The notes under the pieces are model-generated. The model worked only from the letters and a program-made list of their open reading frames with translations, did no database searches and was not told where the DNA came from. A stretch of 64,000 nucleotides of DNA, taken from positions 3,782,001 to 3,846,000 of the forward strand of contig NZ_AP026738.1 of assembly GCF_002157685.2 (NCBI RefSeq), read 5' to 3'. This document shows, piece after piece, positions 3,678 through 16,914 of this stretch (position 1 is its first letter; every line of letters begins with the position of its first letter). The stretch comes from Comamonas thiooxydans. GTDB lineage: Bacteria > Pseudomonadota > Gammaproteobacteria > Burkholderiales > Burkholderiaceae_C. Position numbers and translations under genes: made by a program.

Positions 3678-4529
3678 CTAGCTTGCCTCGATCAGGCCCA
3701 TCAGGACCTGACCCACATCGGCCTCCACCTTGAAAGCCAGCAATGCATCGGCCCTTGTCACGCCTTGATTGATGGCCACGATGGACTTGCCCTGCTCATG
3801 CGCTGCCAGCGCAAAGCGGTAACCCGAATACACCATCAATGAAGAGCCGGCGATCAGCACGGCGTCGGCCCTGGCCACGGCAGCCATGCAGGTCTGCACG
3901 CGTTCACGCGGCACGGTCTCGCCAAAGAACACCACATCGGGCTTGATCAGGCCTGTTCCGCAATGTGGGCAGGCCGGCACGACAAAATGGCTGAAGTCCT
4001 GGTTTTCCAGATCGGCATCGCCATCGGGCGCCGGTGCTGCATACAGTTCAACCCAGGCCGGGTTCAGCGCCAGCAGCCGCTGCTGCAGATCGGCACGGGC
4101 AGAGCGCTTGTCGCAGTCCATGCAGCGCACGGTGTCGATGCGCCCGTGCAGGTCCACGATATTCAGGCTGCCGGCCGCATCATGCAGGCCATCGACATTC
4201 TGGGTGATCAGCAACTCCAGTCGGCCTTGCTGCTCCAGTCGCGCCAGAGCCTGATGGGCGGAACCGGGCCGCGCCTGACCCATCACGCGCCAGCCCAGCA
4301 TGGAACGCGCCCAGTAGCGCTGACGCACCAGCACATCGCCCATGAAGGCCTGATAGGTCACGGGCTGGGGGCGCTTCCACTGTCCGTTGCGGTCACGATA
4401 GTCGGGGATTCCGACTTCGGTGCTGCAGCCGGCGCCACCAATAACCACCACACGCGGGTGCGCATGCAGCCAGTCTTGCAGGCGCCACAGCGCCAGAGCA
4501 TCCACACAATGGTTCACTGTTTCACTCAT
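3678..4529 (-). CDS. Sir2-family NAD-dependent protein deacylase, SIRT4-like class
   Basis: 283 residues. Sirtuin motifs are present: GAGCSTEVGIPDYRDRNGQW (NAD site, about 33-52), TQNVDGLH (about 109-116), the catalytic His in DLHGR, and two zinc CxxC pairs (CMDC, CPHC). The GIPDYRD form of the first motif is typical of class II (SIRT4-like) enzymes, whose activities include deacylation and lipoamidation. Its ATG overlaps the stop of the upstream cardiolipin synthase gene (TAATG), so the two are probably translationally coupled. A second sirtuin of another class lies at 16141-16914. Confidence 0.92.
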   Translation of the reverse strand: MSETVNHCVDALALWRLQDWLHAHPRVVVIGGAGCSTEVGIPDYRDRNGQWKRPQPVTYQAFMGDVLVRQRYWARSMLGWRVMGQARPGSAHQALARLEQQGRLELLITQNVDGLHDAAGSLNIVDLHGRIDTVRCMDCDKRSARADLQQRLLALNPAWVELYAAPAPDGDADLENQDFSHFVVPACPHCGTGLIKPDVVFFGETVPRERVQTCMAAVARADAVLIAGSSLMVYSGYRFALAAHEQGKSIVAINQGVTRADALLAFKVEADVGQVLMGLIEAS

Positions 4530-7135: not shown

Positions 7136-7984
7136 TCAGTTCACCGCCACGCAGACCTGGCGCTGCTCGCCCAGTCCGTCAGCTCCCAGCCGCACCACGT
7201 CGCCGGACTTGAGGAAGACGGGCTCTGGCTTTTGTCCCAGGCCCACGCCTGCCGGTGTGCCGGTCAGCACCACGTCCCCCGGCTCCAGCGTCATGAACTG
7301 GCTGATATACGAAATGAGCGTGGGCAGGCTGAAAATGAAGTTGGCCGTATTGCCGTTCTGCATGCGCTTGCCGTTGACTTCCAGCCACAGGCCCACGCGA
7401 TGCGGATCGGTAATTTCGTCGGCCGTCACCAGCCAGGGGCCCAGCGGTGCAAACGTGTCATGGCTCTTGCCCTTGGTCCAGGTGCCGCCACGCTCCAATT
7501 GCCAGCCACGCTCGGACACATCGTTGGCCAACAGATAGCCGGCCACATGGGACAGAGCCTGCGCCTCGGTCACGCGCCGCGCGCGGCTGCCGATGACAAC
7601 GCCCAGCTCCACCTCCCAGTCGACCTTGTCCGCGCCCTGCGGAATCTGTACCGCATCGCCCGGACCGCAGATCGCCGTCACGGCCTTCATGAACAGCACG
7701 GGTTCGGCCGGCGCTGGCAGTCCGGCCTCGGCCGCGTGGTCGGCATAGTTGAGGCCCGCACAGACCAGCTTGCCCACCTGTGCCACGGGGCAGCCCAGGC
7801 GCGGCGTTCCGTCAACCCTGGGCAAACGGCTCCAGTCCGTATGCCGTATGCGCTCCAGCGCATCGGGACCTAGCTGGCCCGGGCCCCAATCGGGCACCAG
7901 GGCCGATGCATCACGCAGCACGCCGTCGGCGTCCAGCACGCCCGGGCGCTCCGCACCCGCGCTGCCATAGCGAAGCAGTTTCAC
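7136..7984 (-). CDS. Fumarylacetoacetate hydrolase (FAH) family protein
   Basis: 282 residues with the FAH C-terminal catalytic fold: GLNYADHAAE, then the metal-ligand region DWEVELGVVIG (acidic residues about 122-127), ANDVSERGWQ, and the end motif PGDVVLTGTPAGVG. The start is GTG at 7984, with AAGGAG 9 bp upstream. Family members cleave C-C bonds or decarboxylate and hydrate oxo-acids; ureidomalonase-type roles are also known. It is the second gene of a two-gene operon led by the AMDase-like gene, under the operator at 8834-8857. Confidence 0.88.
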   Translation of the reverse strand: MKLLRYGSAGAERPGVLDADGVLRDASALVPDWGPGQLGPDALERIRHTDWSRLPRVDGTPRLGCPVAQVGKLVCAGLNYADHAAEAGLPAPAEPVLFMKAVTAICGPGDAVQIPQGADKVDWEVELGVVIGSRARRVTEAQALSHVAGYLLANDVSERGWQLERGGTWTKGKSHDTFAPLGPWLVTADEITDPHRVGLWLEVNGKRMQNGNTANFIFSLPTLISYISQFMTLEPGDVVLTGTPAGVGLGQKPEPVFLKSGDVVRLGADGLGEQRQVCVAVN

Positions 7985-8033
7985 GATGGTTGTCTCCTTA
8001 TGAATCGGTCAGTGTCGCCCTCTAAGGCCTTCA

Positions 8034-8765
8034 TCATGCAATATCGAACAGACGGCCCCAGCCTTTGACGGAGGAAGGATCACGCCCGACCGCGCGCAGC
8101 ATGCCCCAGACCGTGGTGCTCACGGTATCGAGCAGCGGCACGCCCCAACGGCGCTCCACCTCTTCGGCCAGGTGCGCAGCGCGCAAATTGGTGCAGTAGG
8201 TCACGACGGCGTCGGGCTTGCCCTCTTCGATCACGTTGCCGATGAGTTGCAGCAGCTGCTCGGGCTCCACCAGCGCAAAGCTGTGGTTGACCGAGATGTC
8301 CAGATGGCGCTCTGCCGTGGTCTCGACGCCTGCGGCGCGGTAGTTGTTGACGATGCATTGCTGCACGTCCGCCGTGTACGGGCTGACGATGGCCAGCTTC
8401 TTCACGGAGAGCTTTTCCATCAGCTCATTGAGCGCCAGGATGGCCGTCGTGGCCTTGATGCCGGTGCGCTCGGCAATACGCTCGCACAGCCGCATGTCGG
8501 TCTCAAAGCCACGCCATCCTGCGGCCGTGCCGCTCCAGCCGATCACGTCCACCTTGGCATCGGCCAGCAGCTCGGCGGCGGCCAGGATCTTGCTGTCGTC
8601 AAACTGGTTCAGTGCCCCCTCGGCCAGCGAAATCTCGGTCACCGTGAAGCGCGAAAAATGGGCCGAGCAGTTGCCGGCACTGGCAGCCAGCGCGCTGGTC
8701 AGAGGCTCCAGCGCGGTGTTGGAAGAAGGCGTGAGCACGCCCAGGCATGTCGTAGTTGCAGTCAT
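8034..8765 (-). CDS. Maleate isomerase / arylmalonate decarboxylase-like protein
   Basis: 243 residues of the Asp/Glu racemase superfamily. GVLTPSSNTALEP (9-21) is the signature of the maleate isomerase / arylmalonate decarboxylase branch. The second catalytic Cys is present (Cys191 in TYCTNL). At the first Cys position the sequence reads WSGTAAG, with Gly79, as in arylmalonate decarboxylase (Gly74/Cys188), so isomerase or racemase chemistry by two cysteines is unlikely. The ATG at 8765 has GGAGA upstream. First gene of the minus-strand arm of the GntR-linked island. Confidence 0.8.
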   Translation of the reverse strand: MTATTTCLGVLTPSSNTALEPLTSALAASAGNCSAHFSRFTVTEISLAEGALNQFDDSKILAAAELLADAKVDVIGWSGTAAGWRGFETDMRLCERIAERTGIKATTAILALNELMEKLSVKKLAIVSPYTADVQQCIVNNYRAAGVETTAERHLDISVNHSFALVEPEQLLQLIGNVIEEGKPDAVVTYCTNLRAAHLAEEVERRWGVPLLDTVSTTVWGMLRAVGRDPSSVKGWGRLFDIA

Positions 8766-8833
8766 CTTGCTTGTCTCCGTTGTATGGCCAACCGGCAAAC
8801 CGGTTGGCCGGCATTGTTCACCTCGCCCAAACA

Positions 8834-8857
8834 AACGTCAACAATATTGTTGACAAT
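8834..8857. promoter_or_regulatory. Tandem GntR/FCD-type operator, minus-strand arm
   Basis: A perfect ATTGT-TG-ACAAT dyad (8846-8857) abuts a degenerate unit AACGT-CA-ACAAT (8834-8845). Together they contain the perfect 18-bp palindrome GTCAACAATATTGTTGAC at 8837-8854. The TTGT-N2-ACAA core fits FadR/FCD regulators. It lies 70-90 bp upstream of the AMDase-like gene. The same 12-mer recurs at 8969-8980. Confidence 0.7.
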
Positions 8858-8968
8858 AAATCAAAATCAAATCGCTCAAAGTTATCTGACAAGAAAATCT
8901 TCACTGCGTCGCCACCTTGCACCTCACAGCGTATTTCATAGAAAAATTCCCAAATAGGTGTTTACGAT

Positions 8969-8992
8969 ATTGTTGACAATATTGTCGACATT
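8969..8992. promoter_or_regulatory. Tandem GntR/FCD-type operator, plus-strand arm
   Basis: ATTGT-TG-ACAAT (8969-8980), identical to the dyad at 8846-8857, is followed directly by ATTGT-CG-ACATT (8981-8992). The centre TGTTGACAATATTGTCGACA (8971-8990) is a 20-bp palindrome with one mismatched pair. A TTGACA hexamer (-35-like) lies inside at 8973-8978, so binding should block the promoter of the MFS gene at 9046. Confidence 0.7.
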
Positions 8993-9045
8993 TAGATTTC
9001 GACCTCACATCGAACAACCAACCAACCGATGGAGCGAGACCCGAG

Positions 9046-10353
9046 ATGCAAAACCCAACCACACTTGCCGCGCCACAGGCGGCGGCAGCGCCGACCAAGG
9101 TGCGCTGGAAGATCTTCCTGATGATGCTTTTCCTGATCGCGGTCAATTACATTGACCGCGCATCGCTGTCCGTGGCCATGCCCATGATCGCCAAGGAGTT
9201 CGATCTCAGCCCTGCCGTTCAGGGCCTGCTGATGAGCTCCTTCTTCTGGACCTATGCCTTCATGCAGATTCCCGGCGGCATGCTGGCCGACCGTTTCGGC
9301 CCACGCGTGGTCATCGTCTGCTCCACCCTGGGTTGGGGCTTCTTCCAGGCCATCGCCGCAGCTTGCACCGGCTGGGTGTCGCTGCTGATCACCCGTCTGG
9401 GTCTGGGCGCCTCCGAGGCCCCCATCTACCCCGCAGGCGGCAAGCTCAACGGCATCTGGATGACCCAGAACGAACGCGGCCGCGGCGCCACGCTGCTGGA
9501 CGGTGGCGCACCGCTGGGCGCGGCCCTGGGCGCGCTGATCATCGCCGGCCTGCTGACTCACTTCGACTCCTGGCGCGTATCCTTCGTCGTCGCGGGCGTT
9601 GGCACCATGATCGCGGGTGTCTTTGCCTGGTGGTATATCCGCAACCATCCCCGTGAGCACGCCGGCGTCAATGAAGCCGAAGCTGCCTTCATCGAGGAAG
9701 CACATGCCGCCGACCTCGCCGCCGAACCCGCCCATGCCAGCGGCAAGGTGATGGACTTCTTCAAGTACCGCTCGGTATGGGGCATGTTCTTCGGCTGGAT
9801 GTGCTTCAACGCGCTGTTCTACGGCCTGCTGACCTGGATGCCCACCTACCTGTCCAAGGTGCATGGCATGGACATCAAGCAGATGGGCGGCGCCGTGTTC
9901 ATCATGTTCTTCTCCGGCTTCGTCGGTGAGATGGTCGGCGGCTGGATTGCCGACAAGTGGAAGGCTGCGGGCGCTTCGCAAGCCAAGGTGCTGCGCACGC
10001 TGTTCGGTATCGCCTCGATCATCGCCACCATCGCCATCTACAACGTGGCCCGCTTCAAGGACCCCGTGACCATCGTGATCCTGCTGTCGGTAACGCTGTT
10101 CTTCCTGCGCTGGTGCGGTCTGTTCTGGTGCGTTCCCTCCATTCTGGGCACCCGCAAGCGCGTTGGCTTCCTGGGCGGCGTCATGAACCTGGGCGGCAAC
10201 TTCGCCGGCATCGGCGTACCCATTCTGGTGGGCGTGATCGTGCAGGCCACCGGCTCCTACGACATGGCCATGATGCTCTTCGCTGCTGCAGGCGCAGGCC
10301 TGTTCGTCTGCTCGTCGATCGTGATCGACTACAGCAAGAAGATCCCGGTCTAA
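9046..10353 (+). CDS. MFS transporter, anion:cation symporter (ACS) type
   Basis: 435 residues with about 12 membrane segments. NYIDRASLSVAMPMIAKEF (about 27-45) followed by GGMLADRFGPR is the classic start of the ACS branch (phthalate, hexuronate, galactonate and similar organic anions). First gene of the plus-strand arm of the island, 54 bp after the tandem operator. It should import the substrate, probably a carboxylate-bearing compound, for the hydantoinase and serine hydrolase encoded next. Confidence 0.9.
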   Translation: MQNPTTLAAPQAAAAPTKVRWKIFLMMLFLIAVNYIDRASLSVAMPMIAKEFDLSPAVQGLLMSSFFWTYAFMQIPGGMLADRFGPRVVIVCSTLGWGFFQAIAAACTGWVSLLITRLGLGASEAPIYPAGGKLNGIWMTQNERGRGATLLDGGAPLGAALGALIIAGLLTHFDSWRVSFVVAGVGTMIAGVFAWWYIRNHPREHAGVNEAEAAFIEEAHAADLAAEPAHASGKVMDFFKYRSVWGMFFGWMCFNALFYGLLTWMPTYLSKVHGMDIKQMGGAVFIMFFSGFVGEMVGGWIADKWKAAGASQAKVLRTLFGIASIIATIAIYNVARFKDPVTIVILLSVTLFFLRWCGLFWCVPSILGTRKRVGFLGGVMNLGGNFAGIGVPILVGVIVQATGSYDMAMMLFAAAGAGLFVCSSIVIDYSKKIPV

Positions 10354-10394
10354 GTACCGCCCCGCCTCGCCTGGACACTTTGATGGAGAACCCC

Positions 10395-11609
10395 ATGCCT
10401 TTGCCCACACGCCGAGCCTTGGCCCTGACCTGCGCCACGGCCATCGCCTCAACCCTGAGCACATATGCCGCCACGCCAGCCAGCCGCAACTCCGTCGCCG
10501 TCCAGGCGAGTCCTGATTTCCCTGCTGCCGCCCCCGAGTCCGTAGGCGTGGATTCGCGCCCTCTGGTTCAGTTGTCCGAGATGATCCGCAAGGAAAACCT
10601 CGACGTGCGCAGCTTTCTCGTCGTCAAGGACGGCAAGCTGATCTATGAGCGCTACAGCCAGGGCCTGACGCGCAACCACAACTACGAGCTGTACTCCATC
10701 ACCAAGAACGTGACGGCCCTGGCCGCCGGCGTTCTGGTGGACGAGGGCCACAGCAAGCTCGACGAGAAAGTGGCGCCCATCCTGGCCAAGGCCCGCCCCG
10801 ACCTCCAGGACGCCTTCTCCGACAAGCAATCCATTGAACTGCGGCATGTGCTGTCCATGTCCACGGGCCTGATCTACAACTTCAAACCCACCGACGACCC
10901 CATCTACTACGGCGCCCCCGACCGTCTCAAGCTGGCGGCCGAAACCACGCCCAAGGTAGCGCCCGGCACGACCTTCGACTACACCGACGTCAACCCCATC
11001 CTGGCCAGCGCCACGCTGGGGGCCGACGCCGGTATGCCACTGCAGGACTTTGCGAAGGAGAGACTCTTCAAGCCCATGGGCATGAGCCATTACGCCTGGG
11101 AGCGGGCTGACGACAAGGGCCTGGTCTCCTCCGGCTGGGGGCTGCGCCTGCGCGCCGTGGATATGGCCAAGCTAGGCCAGCTGGTGCTGACCGGCGGCCG
11201 CTGGGACGGCAAGCAGATCGTCTCCCAGGCCTGGGTCCGTACCATGACCGCGCCCGCCTCGGCGCCATGGTATGGCTATTACTGGTGGATCAACGACATC
11301 GTCGCCACCGAGCCCGAAACCCACGCCATGGGCTTCAAGGGCCAGTTCATCGTGGTATTGCCCGAGCGCAATGCCGTGGTGGTCATGACCAGCATGCTGC
11401 CCATCGAAGGCGGCCTGCGCGAATCCCGGAACGTGCTGGCCATCCGCCGCATGGTCAATGACTACGTGCTGCCCGCGCTGAGCAACCAGGCCCATGCCAA
11501 ACCCACGCCCGCCCGCCACAAGGCGTTGGCGCGCGAACTCGAACTCGCATCACAACACCAGGGCAAGTCCGGAGCACCGGCAGACCCTACCGACACCCCG
11601 AAACTCTGA
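10395..11609 (+). CDS. Exported beta-lactamase-family serine hydrolase
   Basis: 404 residues. The start TRRALALTCATAIASTLSTY is a signal peptide, possibly Tat-type because of the Arg pair, so the enzyme is probably periplasmic. The serine beta-lactamase/class C motifs are SITK (Ser101-Lys104) and a Tyr motif YTDVN (Tyr195), with HAMGFKGQFIVV near residue 312 in the KTG-like strand. The ATG at 10395 follows GGAGA. Relatives include esterases, amidases and 6-aminohexanoate-dimer hydrolase. In this island it may hydrolyse an amide or ester before uptake; the substrate is unknown. Confidence 0.85.
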   Translation: MPLPTRRALALTCATAIASTLSTYAATPASRNSVAVQASPDFPAAAPESVGVDSRPLVQLSEMIRKENLDVRSFLVVKDGKLIYERYSQGLTRNHNYELYSITKNVTALAAGVLVDEGHSKLDEKVAPILAKARPDLQDAFSDKQSIELRHVLSMSTGLIYNFKPTDDPIYYGAPDRLKLAAETTPKVAPGTTFDYTDVNPILASATLGADAGMPLQDFAKERLFKPMGMSHYAWERADDKGLVSSGWGLRLRAVDMAKLGQLVLTGGRWDGKQIVSQAWVRTMTAPASAPWYGYYWWINDIVATEPETHAMGFKGQFIVVLPERNAVVVMTSMLPIEGGLRESRNVLAIRRMVNDYVLPALSNQAHAKPTPARHKALARELELASQHQGKSGAPADPTDTPKL

Positions 11610-11617
11610 TATTCAGC

Positions 11618-13051
11618 ATGAAATCCAGCGAATTTGATCTCGTAGTGCGCAATGCGCGCGTTGCCACCGCCAGCGACATCTTTGAATCCGATATAGCCAT
11701 CCGCGACGGCAAGATTGTCCAGCTGGGCACCAACCTGCCCGCCGGCGCCCGCGAATATGACGCTGCCGGCCGCGTGGTCACGCCCGGCGGCATCGACGCC
11801 CACTGCCACCTGGACCAACCCATGGAACCGCCGGTGCGCATGGCCGACGACTTCGACAGCGGCACGCGCGCCGCTGCCTGCGGCGGCACCACCACCGTGA
11901 TTCCGTTCGCCGCCCAGGCCAAGGGCCAGTCGCTGCGCGCGGCCGTGGAGGACTACCACCGCCGTGCCGACGGCAAGGCCCACGTGGACTACGGTTTCCA
12001 CATGATCGTCAGCGACCCCACGCCCGAAGTTCTGGAGAAGGAACTGCCCCAGTTGATCCGCGAAGGCTATACCTCCTTCAAGATCTACATGACCTATGAC
12101 GATCTGAAGCTCAACGACGGCCAGATCCTCGACGTGCTGGACGTGGCGCGCAAGTACGACGCCACTGCCATGATCCATGCCGAGAACGCCGACTGCATCC
12201 AGTGGCTGACCAAGCGCCTGGAAGCCAGCGGCCGCTCCGCTCCGCGCTACCACGCGGTCTCTCGCCCCATGCTGGTGGAGCGCGAAGCCACCCACCGCGC
12301 CATTGCCCTGTCCGAGCTGGCCGACGTACCCATTCTCATCGTCCACGTGTCGGGCCGCGAGGCTGTCGAGCAGATCCGCTGGGCCCGCTCCCACGGCATG
12401 AACATCATGGCCGAAACCTGCCCGCAATACCTGTTCCTGAGCGCAGAAGACCTGGGCATAGACGACAGTTATCAGGGTGCCAAGTGCGTGTGCAGCCCAC
12501 CGCCGCGCGACCAGGCCAACCAGGAAGTGATCTGGAACGGGCTGAACGACGGCCTGTTCACCGTGTTCTCCTCGGACCATGCGCCGTTCAACTACGATTC
12601 ACCCGAAGGCAAGAAGCCCAATGGCGAGGAGGTTTCCTTTGGCCACATTCCCAACGGTATTCCTGGCATCGAGACCCGCCTGTCGCTGCTCTACACGCAT
12701 GGTGTGCTGACGGGCCGCATGACACTCAACCGCTTCGTGGAACTGACCTCCACCAACCCGGCCAAGGTCTACGGCCTGCATCCGCGCAAGGGCAGCATTG
12801 CCATCGGCGCCGATGCCGACCTCGTGGTCTGGCAGGAAGGCGAACGCGCCATCAGCAACCGCGATCTGCACCACAACGTGGACTACACGCCCTATGAAGG
12901 CCAGCAGCTCAAGGCCTGGCCCTGCCTCACCCTGTCTGCGGGACAGGTAGTCTGGGACGGCGAGCAGTTCCACGGCCGCTCCGGCGGCGGCCGCTTCCTG
13001 CAGCGCGGCGCGCCCACACTGCTGCCCAAGCGCCACCAGGCCCGCTTCTGA
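11618..13051 (+). CDS. Hydantoinase / dihydropyrimidinase
   Basis: 477 residues, the usual length for this cyclic amidohydrolase. The binuclear metal site is complete: His62 and His64 in DAHCHLD, Lys155 in SFKIYM (the carboxylated lysine), His187, His243 and Asp320 in SSDHAPF. It opens cyclic diamides such as hydantoins or dihydropyrimidines to N-carbamoyl amino acids in the cytoplasm. It begins 8 bp after the serine hydrolase stop. No N-carbamoyl amino-acid hydrolase is found nearby, so the fate of the product is open. Confidence 0.93.
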   Translation: MKSSEFDLVVRNARVATASDIFESDIAIRDGKIVQLGTNLPAGAREYDAAGRVVTPGGIDAHCHLDQPMEPPVRMADDFDSGTRAAACGGTTTVIPFAAQAKGQSLRAAVEDYHRRADGKAHVDYGFHMIVSDPTPEVLEKELPQLIREGYTSFKIYMTYDDLKLNDGQILDVLDVARKYDATAMIHAENADCIQWLTKRLEASGRSAPRYHAVSRPMLVEREATHRAIALSELADVPILIVHVSGREAVEQIRWARSHGMNIMAETCPQYLFLSAEDLGIDDSYQGAKCVCSPPPRDQANQEVIWNGLNDGLFTVFSSDHAPFNYDSPEGKKPNGEEVSFGHIPNGIPGIETRLSLLYTHGVLTGRMTLNRFVELTSTNPAKVYGLHPRKGSIAIGADADLVVWQEGERAISNRDLHHNVDYTPYEGQQLKAWPCLTLSAGQVVWDGEQFHGRSGGGRFLQRGAPTLLPKRHQARF

Positions 13052-13062
13052 ATCCATTTCTA

Positions 13063-13141
13063 AATCAACCGATTACTTTGTCGGCTTCGCTTGTCGTGCT
13101 ACAGCACTGCCTGCGCTTCGCCTTCGCCCACTCGGTTGATT
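13063..13141. repeat. Long-spaced inverted repeat between the hydantoinase and racemase-like genes
   Basis: AATCAACCGA (13063-13072) is matched exactly in inverse by TCGGTTGATT (13132-13141), 59 nt apart. The interior is rich in CTTCGC/GCTTCG. This is most of the 124-bp gap inside the operon. It may be an inserted miniature repeat or a large RNA stem-loop that tunes expression of the downstream genes. Confidence 0.5.
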
Positions 13142-13175
13142 GAGAAACGGAGTAAAACCTCTTCACGAACACACC

Positions 13176-13922
13176 ATGAAACTGCTCATCATCAACCCCA
13201 ATATCTCCGAGAGTGTCACCGCCCTCATCGAGAAAGAGGCCAGGCTGGCCGCCGCGCCGGGCACGGAAATCACCATGATGACCGCGCCCATGGGCGTGGC
13301 TTATATCGAGACGCGTTTCGAGGCCATGATCGCAGCCTATGCCGTGGCCGAGCTGGCCGCCGAACATGCGCACCAGCATGACGCCGTCATCCTGGCGGCC
13401 TTTGGCGATCCGGGCCTCGAAGGCCTGCGCGAGGCGCTGGACATCCCCGTGCTGGGCATGACGGAGTCCGCGCTCATGAGCGCCTGCATGCTGGGCAAAC
13501 GCTTTTCCATCATCGCCATCTCCAGGCGCATCACGGCCTGGTATCGCGACATGGTGGAGCGCAATGGCCTGATTGACCGCTTGGCCAGCATCCGTTGTCT
13601 CGATGAGCCGCTGCGCGACATCGGCAGCGTTCAGGACGATCATGCAGCGCGCTTGCAGGCCCTGTGCGAAGCCGCCTTTCATGATGACGGCGCCGATGTG
13701 CTGATCATCGCCGGCGCGCCGCTGGCAGGCCTGGCCCGCTCCATCAAGCACCAGTTGCCGGTGCCCGCGGTTGACGGCGTCTCCAGCGCCGTCAACCATG
13801 CGCAAAGCCTAGTCTCGCTGGCTCCCGCGCCCGCCCGGGCCGGCAGCTTCGCCAAGCCGCCACGCAAGGACTTCAAGAACCTTCCTCCTGGACTGACTCA
13901 GCTCCTGAGCAAGCTGCCGTAA
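13176..13922 (+). CDS. Asp/Glu/hydantoin racemase-family protein lacking both usual catalytic cysteines
   Basis: 248 residues starting MKLLIINPNISESVT, as in hydantoin racemase HyuE. The two catalytic cysteines of HyuE (ACFGDPGL and GCAG) are replaced: the sequence reads LAAFGDPGLEG (Ala75) and IAGAPLAG (Ala181). The fold and the FGDPGL loop are kept, so the protein is probably folded and used, but two-base Cys racemisation is not expected. It sits between the hydantoinase and the GntR gene. It could be a lyase or decarboxylase, or a binding protein. I used the ATG at 13176 because the fold begins there. Confidence 0.85.
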   Translation: MKLLIINPNISESVTALIEKEARLAAAPGTEITMMTAPMGVAYIETRFEAMIAAYAVAELAAEHAHQHDAVILAAFGDPGLEGLREALDIPVLGMTESALMSACMLGKRFSIIAISRRITAWYRDMVERNGLIDRLASIRCLDEPLRDIGSVQDDHAARLQALCEAAFHDDGADVLIIAGAPLAGLARSIKHQLPVPAVDGVSSAVNHAQSLVSLAPAPARAGSFAKPPRKDFKNLPPGLTQLLSKLP

Positions 13923-13939
13923 AGGCTTCAAAGAAGCCT
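13923..13939 (+). terminator. Hairpin after the racemase-like gene
   Basis: AGGCTTC-AAA-GAAGCCT is a perfect 7-bp stem starting one base after the stop codon. No U-tract follows, so it may be an attenuator or mRNA-stabilising stem rather than a full terminator. It would set the GntR gene apart from the structural genes. Confidence 0.4.
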
Positions 13940-13991
13940 CATGCCGCGCGTCTATCGGGAGGCTTGCCAGCCGATACTAGAATTCACCCAC

Positions 13992-14711
13992 ATGTCGACA
14001 AAAACGGCTTTTAAAGTGAACAATCGAAACAGCGCCTCCCGCTCCGAAATCACCGTAGATGAAATGGCTTCGCGCATTGCGACTGCCATCCATGAACATC
14101 GTTTGCTACCGGGCACCAAGCTGGGAGAAGACAGGCTAGCCAGCATCTTCAACACCAGCCGCGCCCGGGTTCGTGAGGTTCTGGCCCGCATGGCCCGCGA
14201 GCAGATGGTGGAGCTTTTCCCCCAACGCGGTGCTTTTGTCGCCAAGCCGAGCATTGATCAGGCCTTGGATGTGTTTGAAGCGCGCCGCCTGATCGAACCA
14301 GGTGTGGTACAGCGCCTGGTCAAACATGTCGACAATACCAAGATTCGCAGACTCCAGGCCCACCTCAAGGCCGAGCGAGACGCTAGAAAAAATGCGGACA
14401 AACGCGCCACCGTCCGCCTATCAGGCGAGTTCCACGTGCTGCTGGCCGAACTCGCGGGCAACTCTGCACTGCTTCGCAGCATGCGTGAGCTGTCAACGCT
14501 GACCTGCCTGACCATTTCTCTCTACGAGTCTGCCGTCAATACCTGCTGCCTGGTGGACGAACATGAAGCCGTTGTCGACGCCATCATTGCAGGCAACAGC
14601 GAGCAGGCCGAACAATTGATGCTCAAGCACCTTGATCACATTCAGGGCAGCCTGCGTCTGGAGGCCGATGCAGACGGAGCAGATCTCGAAGAAATTCTGG
14701 GCGACATCTAG
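13992..14711 (+). CDS. GntR-family regulator, FadR/FCD type
   Basis: 239 residues: an N-terminal winged HTH (about 20-85; LGEDRLASIFNTSRARVREV) and a C-terminal all-helical FCD ligand domain (about 93-225) with the usual His residues in SGEFHVLL and DEHEAVVDAI. FCD regulators generally repress catabolic operons and are released by a pathway metabolite. It is the only DNA-binding gene in the island, and FCD regulators bind TTGT-N-ACAA dyads, matching the operators at 8834 and 8969. I took the ATG at 13992; an upstream in-frame start at 13941 overlaps a hairpin. Confidence 0.9.
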   Translation: MSTKTAFKVNNRNSASRSEITVDEMASRIATAIHEHRLLPGTKLGEDRLASIFNTSRARVREVLARMAREQMVELFPQRGAFVAKPSIDQALDVFEARRLIEPGVVQRLVKHVDNTKIRRLQAHLKAERDARKNADKRATVRLSGEFHVLLAELAGNSALLRSMRELSTLTCLTISLYESAVNTCCLVDEHEAVVDAIIAGNSEQAEQLMLKHLDHIQGSLRLEADADGADLEEILGDI

Positions 14712-14872: not shown

Positions 14873-15454
14873 ATGAGCACCACCCCTGCCCCAACCGCCA
14901 TCTCGCGCCCTCGCCCACGCGATCTGCGCGAGCTTTTCTGGTCGCTGACCTTTCTGGCCTTGCAGGGCTTTGGCGGCGTACTGGCCGTGGTCCAGCGCGA
15001 GTTGGTGGAAAAGCGCCAGTGGTTGAGCAACGAAGAATTCATCGAAGACTGGGCCGTGGCGCAGATCATGCCCGGCCCCAATGTGGTGAATCTGTCCATC
15101 ATGCTGGGCGAACGCTACTTCGGCTGGCGCGGTGCCGTCGTGGGGTTGTGCGGAATGCTGACGTTTCCCATGCTGGCGGTCATCAGCCTCACCCTGCTCT
15201 ATACCCAGTTCGCGGCCAACCCGGCCGTCGCCGGAGCACTGCGCGGCATGGGCGCCGTGGCGGCAGGGCTGGTGGCCGGCATGGGCCTGAAGCTGGCTGG
15301 CACACTGCGCAAGCACCCGCTGGGCAAGTGGTATTGCGCAGGGCTGGCCATCGCCGCCTTTGTGCTGGTGGCCGTGCTGCGCCTGCCGCTGTTCTGGGCC
15401 TTGCTGCTGGTGGGCGCAACAGGCTGCGTGCTGACCTACCGGAGGCTGGCATGA
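14873..15454 (+). CDS. chrA: Chromate transporter, N-terminal-half ChrA protein
   Basis: 193 residues. LFWSLTFLALQGFGG (about 21-35) and QIMPGPNVVNLS (about 64-75) are the CHR-domain signatures; about six membrane segments follow. In short-chain CHR systems two half-size proteins of opposite topology form the transporter. The stop overlaps the start of the second half-gene by ATGA. CHR proteins export chromate; other CHR members may move sulfate or other anions. Confidence 0.9.
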   Translation: MSTTPAPTAISRPRPRDLRELFWSLTFLALQGFGGVLAVVQRELVEKRQWLSNEEFIEDWAVAQIMPGPNVVNLSIMLGERYFGWRGAVVGLCGMLTFPMLAVISLTLLYTQFAANPAVAGALRGMGAVAAGLVAGMGLKLAGTLRKHPLGKWYCAGLAIAAFVLVAVLRLPLFWALLLVGATGCVLTYRRLA

Positions 15455-16140: not shown

Positions 16141-16914
16141 CTACGCGGGACTTGCCAGCAGCAAGGGCAGCACCTGTGCCGATGGCATGGCGATCATCTG
16201 GTCGGCCACCGAGTCCAGCTCGCTGGCATGCGGGTTGATGATGACCACGCGCGCCCGGTTGCGCCTGGCGATCTTGGCCAAACCTGCTGCCGGGTAGACG
16301 GCGCCCGACGTGCCGATCACCAGCATCAGCTGACATTGCTCTGCCGCCTGCTCCGCCCTGGCCCAGGTCTGGCCGGGCAGAGACTCGCCAAACCACACGA
16401 CGGCAGGCCGCAGCAGATTGCCGCAGGCGGCGCAATGAGGCGGCTCGCCCGGAACAACCTGCTCCATGTCGCAGGACGCACAGCGGCGATTCAGCCAGCG
16501 ATTCCTGCTCAGCTCCCCATGCAGGCTCAGCACATCTTCACTGCCCGCCTGCTGGTGCAGGCCATCCACGTTCTGCGTGATGAGTGTCATTCGACCGGGA
16601 TGCTGCCTTGCCCAACGCGCCAGCGCCAGATGCCCCTCATTGGGGGTCACCTTGGCAACCAGCGCACGTCGGTGCTCGTACCAGCGCCAGACATGAGCCG
16701 GATCGCGGCGGTACCCCGCCTCGCTGGCCATTTCCTCGGGCTTGAACTGGGACCAATACCCGTCTGCATCCTCCCTGAAAGTGGGCACTCCCGACTCGGC
16801 GCTGACACCGGCCCCGGTTAGCACGGCCAGTCGCTGCGCCTCGCCCAGCCAGCGACGCACGCAGGCAATCGCACCCAAGGACGTCGAAGAATTGTCAATA
16901 AGTGCTTGAACCAA
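16141..16914 (-). CDS. Sir2-family NAD-dependent deacylase, CobB/SIRT5-like class
   Basis: 257 residues. The NAD site GAGVSAESGVPTFR (about 34-47), TQNVDGLH, catalytic HGE and the zinc pairs CASC and CAAC are all present. WYEHRR carries the Tyr-x2-Arg pair that in SIRT5 and CobB binds succinyl-lysine, so desuccinylase and deacetylase activity is likely. Divergent from the hybrid sensor kinase at 16979. The sirtuin at 3678 belongs to another class, so the two are not simple duplicates. Confidence 0.92.
   Translation of the reverse strand: MVQALIDNSSTSLGAIACVRRWLGEAQRLAVLTGAGVSAESGVPTFREDADGYWSQFKPEEMASEAGYRRDPAHVWRWYEHRRALVAKVTPNEGHLALARWARQHPGRMTLITQNVDGLHQQAGSEDVLSLHGELSRNRWLNRRCASCDMEQVVPGEPPHCAACGNLLRPAVVWFGESLPGQTWARAEQAAEQCQLMLVIGTSGAVYPAAGLAKIARRNRARVVIINPHASELDSVADQMIAMPSAQVLPLLLASPA

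Follow-up and report, generated by a model that had tools for sequence, protein, structure and literature searches.

We analyzed a 64 kb window of the Comamonas thiooxydans genome (a single contig of 5.9 Mb) that contains a putative catabolic island bearing a GntR-family regulator gene. As a preliminary description made from the DNA alone had proposed, coordinates and profile matches place seven complete genes in two divergent arms, with no carbamoylase gene inside the cluster. The left arm, which runs leftward on the minus strand, encodes a fumarylacetoacetate-hydrolase family protein (FAH, 7136..7984; PF01557, 250 bits) that scores 414 bits against NF053535, under the cut-off of 500, and AMD (8034..8765; PF17645 Amdase, 83.5 bits with a cut-off of 25.9), a protein resembling arylmalonate decarboxylase (AMDase) and EutA. 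The right arm, on the plus strand, opens with a major facilitator superfamily (MFS) transporter (9046..10353; PF07690 MFS_1, 176 bits), whose nearest NCBIfam model, TIGR00893 of the D-galactonate (ACS) subfamily, scores 239 bits, under its cut-off of 395. It continues with a serine hydrolase of the beta-lactamase family (10383..11609; PF00144, 118 bits), probably exported to judge from a signal peptide read by eye at the N-terminus, followed by HYD, of the D-hydantoinase/dihydropyrimidinase family (11618..13051), RAC, of the Asp/Glu/hydantoin-racemase family (13176..13922; PF01177, 143.6 bits with a cut-off of 31), and the regulator (13941..14711), for which an alternative internal ATG start is possible at 13992. 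The regulator is an FCD-type GntR protein, as its winged helix (PF00392, 47.9 bits) and FCD domain (PF07729, 84.6 bits) are both over cut-off.

HYD scores 538 bits against TIGR02033 (cut-off 393) and 763 bits against PRK13404 (cut-off 647); no other protein of its genome passes the TIGR02033 cut-off. Its motifs HxH, SFK, HAEN, VHVSG, and SSDH, which we take to hold the binuclear metal ligands (four His, a carbamylated Lys, and an Asp), are invariant in 40 aligned homologs, and because of this invariance HYD looks complete, as had been suggested. Hydantoinase_A (PF01968) was considered for the hydantoinase role and rejected, having no match in the genome.

The conserved gene unit and its promoters

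The seven genes had been proposed to form a conserved unit, and we searched 399 genomes from the family with RAC and with AMD. RAC matched 40 genomes at E 1e-40 and 32 at a minimum identity of 60%, while AMD matched 34 at E 1e-40. RAC (at least 60%) and AMD occur together in 29 genomes, where 2.7 would be expected (hypergeometric p ~1e-35, a value that overstates independence given the relatedness of the genomes); for 25 of the 29, both genes sit on one contig within 12 kb. Neighbors were scored in up to 20 kb around each of the 32 RAC genes, which span 22 genera, and counted within 10.5 kb, using representative sequences picked from a clustering of open reading frames whose clusters contained shadow frames; one of the 32 loci is the window itself (G000; G and L numbers are our labels for genomes and loci). 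HYD is present near 31 RAC genes, and AMD and GntR near 26 each. The grouping exceeds chance, and the neighborhood test in other genomes came out as the preliminary description had anticipated.

Other members of the island proved variable. The transporter is an MFS protein of the present type in 11 of the 32 loci, another MFS protein in four, a TRAP system in nine, and an ABC system of the NMT1 or SBP6 type in seven each. Members of the FAH superfamily, of two unlike types, occur in 12 loci (one match, in L057, is a fragment), and the serine hydrolase in four; the latter is absent at the locus even in near relatives such as C. testosteroni JL40. Genes for amidase-signature enzymes (11 loci), TRZ/ATZ-type hydrolases (8), an epimerase/SDR pair (7), and an aminotransferase nearest to the aspartate-glyoxylate enzyme BhcA, under its cut-off (5), also recur. 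The real unit is smaller than the island: HYD, RAC, AMD, and the FCD-GntR regulator plus a transporter, with FAH and the serine hydrolase as optional accessories. The seven-gene set was rejected as the unit, and the carbamoylase-free core of the original claim stands.

The 32-locus set excludes genus-search loci L085-L088 and related-locus-search loci L016-L018. It includes G077, whose RAC match (L083) ends in an in-frame TAG at residue 161 and may represent a decaying copy. The loci of G164, G161, and G445 are cut by contig ends, and the AMD of G161, a contig-end fragment, is counted near RAC and not among the 34 AMD genomes. L017 and L088, the same stretch from one strain, are near-duplicates within the 43-, 40-, and 31-sequence alignments and the 72 promoter loci used here. 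HYD is missing only at L066, probably through a contig break, as another contig of that genome (L126) starts with HYD beside AMD and GntR. Five AMD genomes lack a RAC at 60% identity: in G231, G271, and G401, AMD is accompanied by HYD and a more distant RAC without cysteines; G242 has HYD, GntR, TRAP, amidase, and a RAC relative of 29% identity; and no marker genes were found in the 20 kb of G235. The close RAC form occurs in 5 of 37 Comamonas genomes, making the cluster accessory. The nearest named RAC relatives are those of Comamonas terrae (95%) and C. testosteroni JL40 (94%), with records of the genome itself possibly excluded. In another Comamonas relative (L085, G021), the MFS match falls in two pieces (6527, 7041), and the transporter gene may be broken.

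Like hydantoin-utilization (hyu) clusters, the module has adjoining genes of the D-hydantoinase and hydantoin-racemase families together with a transporter and a regulator; unlike them, it has no carbamoylase, its racemase relative lacks the cysteines, and an AMDase-like partner is present instead. Nor is a carbamoylase regularly encoded just outside the cluster, which would have spoken against the initial reading: the M20 carbamoylase family lies near one of the 32 RAC genes and the nitrilase family near none, in a scan that used three proteins of each family from the window's genome as queries and could miss a distant D-carbamoylase. A fourth nitrilase of that genome, used as a query, gave no match. 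The recurrent amidase-signature enzymes could substitute for a carbamoylase, as could M20 proteins encoded elsewhere in the genome; amidase-signature matches were absent from the Comamonas loci and from the plasmid stretches of Paraburkholderia, Cupriavidus, and Arthrobacter.

The palindrome TTGTYRACAA marks cluster promoters across genera. Its only two exact copies in the window, both reading TTGTTGACAA, lie in the divergent intergenic region between the arms (8847..8856 and 8970..8979), with a one-mismatch copy next to the second (8982-8991). With one mismatch allowed, 72 related and partly redundant loci hold 86 copies in 70 kb of promoter sequence (300-base windows upstream of cluster genes) against 117 in the remaining 1.27 Mb, a 13-fold enrichment, and 35 of the 72 have at least one copy there. 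Exact copies number 18 in the promoter windows and one in the 1.27 Mb elsewhere. As promoters are AT-richer, the palindrome was ranked among all 256 half-sites of the same build. TTGT came first by promoter count, and the next AT-rich one, ACAA (12 in promoters, 0 elsewhere), fits a phase-shifted reading of that repeat. The GntR protein presumably binds these sites as putative operators.

Directly downstream of the GntR gene lie a chromate-transporter gene (14873-15454; PF02417) and its probable second half (to 16050). The chromate-transporter gene also comes after the island in close Comamonas relatives and seems to have no connection with it. Two differing Sir2-like (NAD-dependent deacetylase) frames on the minus strand flank the island (3678-4529 and 16141-16914), named by eye from the sequence, with weak cross-matches.

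RAC and AMD among their relatives

RAC belongs to the same sequence family as the allantoin racemases: phmmer gives E 1.1e-37 for Pseudomonas AllR (Protein Data Bank 5LFD), within a range of 1e-37 to 6e-34 that includes the Klebsiella enzyme KpAllR (3QVJ). Catalysis by KpAllR uses Cys79 and Cys184 (PMC12661438). These residues align to Ala75 and Gly180 of RAC, bearing out the early observation of a racemase without its cysteines. Both cysteines are absent in every checked RAC homolog of at least 42% identity, one truncated copy being seen at the first site only, and the surrounding AAFGDPG motif is invariant across 43 aligned sequences. Two-cysteine proteins of the hydantoin-racemase type (L014, L015) retain ACFGDPG and GCAGM. 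In a 56-row tree, the six two-cysteine rows form one separate clade (support 100/98), and the cysteine-free label needs two changes against 14.8 in shuffles; a single origin of cysteine-free RAC is compatible with this topology without being established by it. On these alignments, RAC is not a two-thiol racemase; that it is not a racemase at all is only likely.

RAC and AMD might still be isomerases or racemases that use other acid/base residues, in which case the module would be a stereochemical variant of hydantoin use. R47, E49, D78, and Y123 are among the residues invariant in 16 diverse RAC rows and could serve. Single Cys-to-Thr variants of Asp/Glu racemases also exist (PMC8142540). In a human cofactor-independent epimerase of another fold, a Cys-to-Thr change gives a dehydratase, which speaks for a changed reaction in RAC (PMC8142540). 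In the 16 RAC rows, however, the two sites are Ala or Val, and Gly, never Thr or Ser, and the motif near residue 45 reads YIETRFEA rather than the IEGHFDE or VEGNFES of racemases, which leaves this explanation doubtful.

A second, more distant class of RAC, also cysteine-free (37-39% identity; AVSxD- and AGAxMA-like motifs), is found where either HYD and AMD or TRZ-type hydrolase and amidase genes are present; at most of its loci (L121-L123, L128, L130, L131, L133, and L075), TRZ/ATZ-type hydrolases and amidase-signature genes are close by. A further, one-cysteine class (ACFGDPG but GGAxLAG) is represented by L158, L160, L161, L162, L166, and, at 12212, L075, where it sits just before a HYD gene. 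Four neighborhoods fetched for this class (L186, L188-L190) contain no HYD or AMD.

AMD shares with the Bordetella-type AMDase (EC 4.1.1.76) the Amdase Pfam domain and several active-site positions: G79, T80, Y130, and C191 align to G74, T75, Y126, and the single cysteine C188. By eye, P13 matches P14 as well; all five, together with N160, are invariant in 31 aligned AMD sequences. The criteria given in a 2016 AMDase survey (PMC4996985) comprise G74, C188, T75, Y126, P14, S76, P15, G189, V156, M159, and the motif LMGTSLSF. AMD has the first five and departs at the others, with A81 for S76, S14 (by eye) for P15, T192 for G189, N160 for V156, F163 for M159, and WSGTAAGW in place of the motif. 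The hydrophobic-pocket pattern GLGLxxVxxxGY (L40, V43, Y48) was not seen by eye in AMD, where the corresponding stretch falls outside the alignment with AMDase. The survey considers automatic AMDase annotations without the pocket highly unlikely to act on arylmalonates (PMC4996985). AMD also scores 78.9 bits against the NCBIfam AMDase equivalog NF052327 (cut-off 225) and 69.9 bits against TIGR02990, the EutA of ectoine use (cut-off 318), for which an Arthrobacter homolog reaches 112 bits. A prototype AMDase was rejected on the unmatched published positions and the NF052327 score; we claim for AMD only AMDase-like single-cysteine chemistry.

Maleate cis-trans isomerase has two active-site cysteines. 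The best Protein Data Bank match of AMD is an enzyme of this type (4fq7, E 3e-14), which, with the amidase-signature genes near 11 of 32 RAC genes, would accommodate a cyclic imide route: HYD would act as an imidase (e.g., on maleimide), an amidase would free the dicarboxylate, and AMD would isomerize maleate to fumarate. In the 4fq7 alignment, however, the first cysteine corresponds to the invariant Gly79 and only the second (Cys191) is kept, and we rejected AMD as a maleate isomerase. As the route also gives RAC nothing to do, and no amidase matched near RAC in 21 of the 32 loci, that of the window among them, we regard it as very improbable.

Spread beyond the family

The module extends beyond the family. 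In a search of 72,556 plasmid records, RAC matched 19 at E 1e-30, and six of these (L140-L145) were examined in detail. The Paraburkholderia, Cupriavidus, and Arthrobacter plasmids have near-minimal sets. A Paraburkholderia plasmid carries MFS, AMD, HYD (67% identical), and RAC, together with a divergent GntR gene and a DUF3830 gene, and a Cupriavidus metallidurans plasmid carries MFS, AMD, HYD, and RAC in a row, with no GntR match in a record that is unannotated there. The Arthrobacter ZXY-2 plasmid encodes MFS, GntR, RAC, a dihydropyrimidinase, and AMD. On Klebsiella oxytoca pIron_OXY (L140), an ABC system, oxidoreductases, AMD, HYD (65%), a FAH-type gene, GntR, and RAC lie together, and a Methylobacterium nodulans plasmid has HYD, AMD, RAC, ABC, and SDR genes. 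On a Defluviimonas plasmid, RAC, amidase, HYD, and a class V aminotransferase are grouped, with an AMD relative ~9 kb off. The pIron_OXY RAC is 59% identical to that of Comamonas, placing the module in its ABC form on an Enterobacteriaceae plasmid; the RAC of a Klebsiella michiganensis plasmid is also 59% identical. A DUF3830 gene recurs beside the module (L121-L123, L079, L145; 55-57% matches).

At the level of the phylum, the RAC profile matches 77 of 398 genomes at E 1e-40. Motifs in 30 of these matches comprise 12 of the cysteine-free AAFGDP type (two from the family of the window), one of the second cysteine-free type, five of the one-cysteine ACFGDPG type, five of the allantoin-racemase type, and seven with both cysteines. 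Ten loci of the AAFGDP type lie outside the family (L176-L185); eight of them contain a HYD relative of at least 53% identity and seven an AMD relative of at least 46%.

Candidate pathway and its alternatives

Together, these findings describe a module in which hydantoinase-based catabolism, which is known, is joined by an unusual feature, a conserved thiol-less racemase relative tied to an AMDase-like protein. No description of the cluster was found in the open-licence PMC articles searched, and it may be published elsewhere. Our overall reading, to which we assign a probability of about 0.5, is a GntR-bearing accessory catabolic operon for the import of an anionic cyclic ureide or imide, its ring-opening, and subsequent cofactor-free steps by AMD and RAC. 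We infer the substrate class, the order of steps, and the AMD and RAC reactions, and, since AMD departs from several AMDase criteria, the malonate-like product as well. The interpretation in the preliminary description is supported in part, for the conserved carbamoylase-free unit, the cysteine-less racemase relative, the AMDase-like partner, and the GntR gene.

MFS and TRAP transporter types suggest an organic-anion substrate. The transporter, of the carboxylate type in many loci, would import an organic anion bearing a cyclic ureide or imide, and HYD would hydrolyze the amide bond of the ring, the usual reaction of hydantoinases and dihydropyrimidinases, to give a ureido- or amido-acid. AMD may then act on the ring-opened acid through cofactor-free enolate chemistry at its single cysteine. 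If ring-opening sets two carboxylates on one carbon, this step would be a decarboxylation, and otherwise an isomerization; a carboxylate on the ring carbon next to the cleaved carbonyl would give a malonate, which a single-cysteine decarboxylase would fit next. RAC remains in the racemase fold family and has most likely retained ureide binding; lacking the thiols, it cannot perform two-cysteine proton transfer, and its step may be of lyase type or hydrolytic, such as loss of the carbamoyl or amide nitrogen. Where no amidase is nearby, nitrogen could be released by RAC, AMD, another amidase of the genome, or a trans-acting carbamoylase. FAH, serine hydrolase, amidase, TRZ/ATZ-type hydrolase, aminotransferase, or SDR genes may adapt the core to different substrates and exits.

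For the more tentative carbamoylase-free route described below, chemical reasoning suggests a carboxylated hydantoin or dihydropyrimidine as a candidate substrate, with ring-opening yielding a malonate that AMD would decarboxylate. In the case of alloxanate (5-hydroxyhydantoin-5-carboxylate), the product would be ureidoglycolate, which would give glyoxylate and urea; the BhcA-like aminotransferases and FAH-family genes would fit a glyoxylate exit. In the oxidative pyrimidine pathway of barbiturase and ureidomalonase, a pyrimidine-like ring is opened by an enzyme of the cyanuric-acid-hydrolase family and an amidase-signature enzyme acts next. The module resembles that pathway in ring-opening followed, in some loci, by an amidase-signature enzyme; it differs in that the ring-opener is of the hydantoinase family, the cyanuric-acid-hydrolase family not having been searched for in these loci.

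Several observations weigh against the operon reading, besides the relatedness of the genomes behind the co-occurrence and the departures of AMD from AMDase. Six of the 32 loci lack AMD within 10.5 kb (four of these genomes hold it on another contig and two have none at threshold), and of the 10 cysteine-free RAC loci outside the family, two lack HYD and three lack AMD. The Arthrobacter ZXY-2 dihydropyrimidinase is only 32% identical to HYD. The Pseudomonas allantoin racemase (5LFD) also has no cysteine in its first motif, AGYGEHG, yet is named a racemase in the Protein Data Bank, so a missing thiol alone does not exclude racemization. Finally, three proteins over the cut-off of TIGR01879 (M20 carbamoylase family) are encoded elsewhere in the genome of the window, so a carbamoylase could act in trans.

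The last two points favor ordinary hydantoin use, in which HYD would produce an N-carbamoyl amino acid, an M20 enzyme encoded elsewhere would finish the conversion, RAC would be a degenerate or non-thiol racemase, and AMD would be incidental. None of the three M20 genes is near the cluster, however, and the one at 1837548 adjoins its own hydantoinase/allantoinase-like neighbor at 1838854. Moreover, AMD accompanies RAC in 29 of 32 genomes, while an M20 gene does so at a single locus, and a widely spread group of RAC proteins lacks both cysteines throughout. We thus consider ordinary hydantoin use unlikely. Within the operon reading, a bolder and distinctly tentative proposal is that RAC founds a cysteine-free class in the Asp/Glu racemase superfamily that strips ureido or amide nitrogen from a ring-opened ureide, and that RAC and AMD together could provide a carbamoylase-free route.

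The main text of the AMDase survey uses "hydantoin" three times, always within "hydantoin racemase," and names no hydantoinase neighbor (PMC4996985). It reports that TRAP, tripartite, or ABC transporters often adjoin AMDase genes, as in the present module, and that the natural substrate of AMDase "remains to be identified" (PMC4996985). Our results tie a single-cysteine AMDase relative by neighborhood to a hydantoinase and a thiol-less racemase relative, across 22 genera within a single family and also on plasmids outside that family, which narrows the substrate question to a short list of assays on ureides and ring-opened acids. They also suggest that "hydantoin racemase" annotations in the RAC group should not be taken at face value. 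If the carbamoylase-free route proves true, the module would show a natural role for AMDase-like enzymes.

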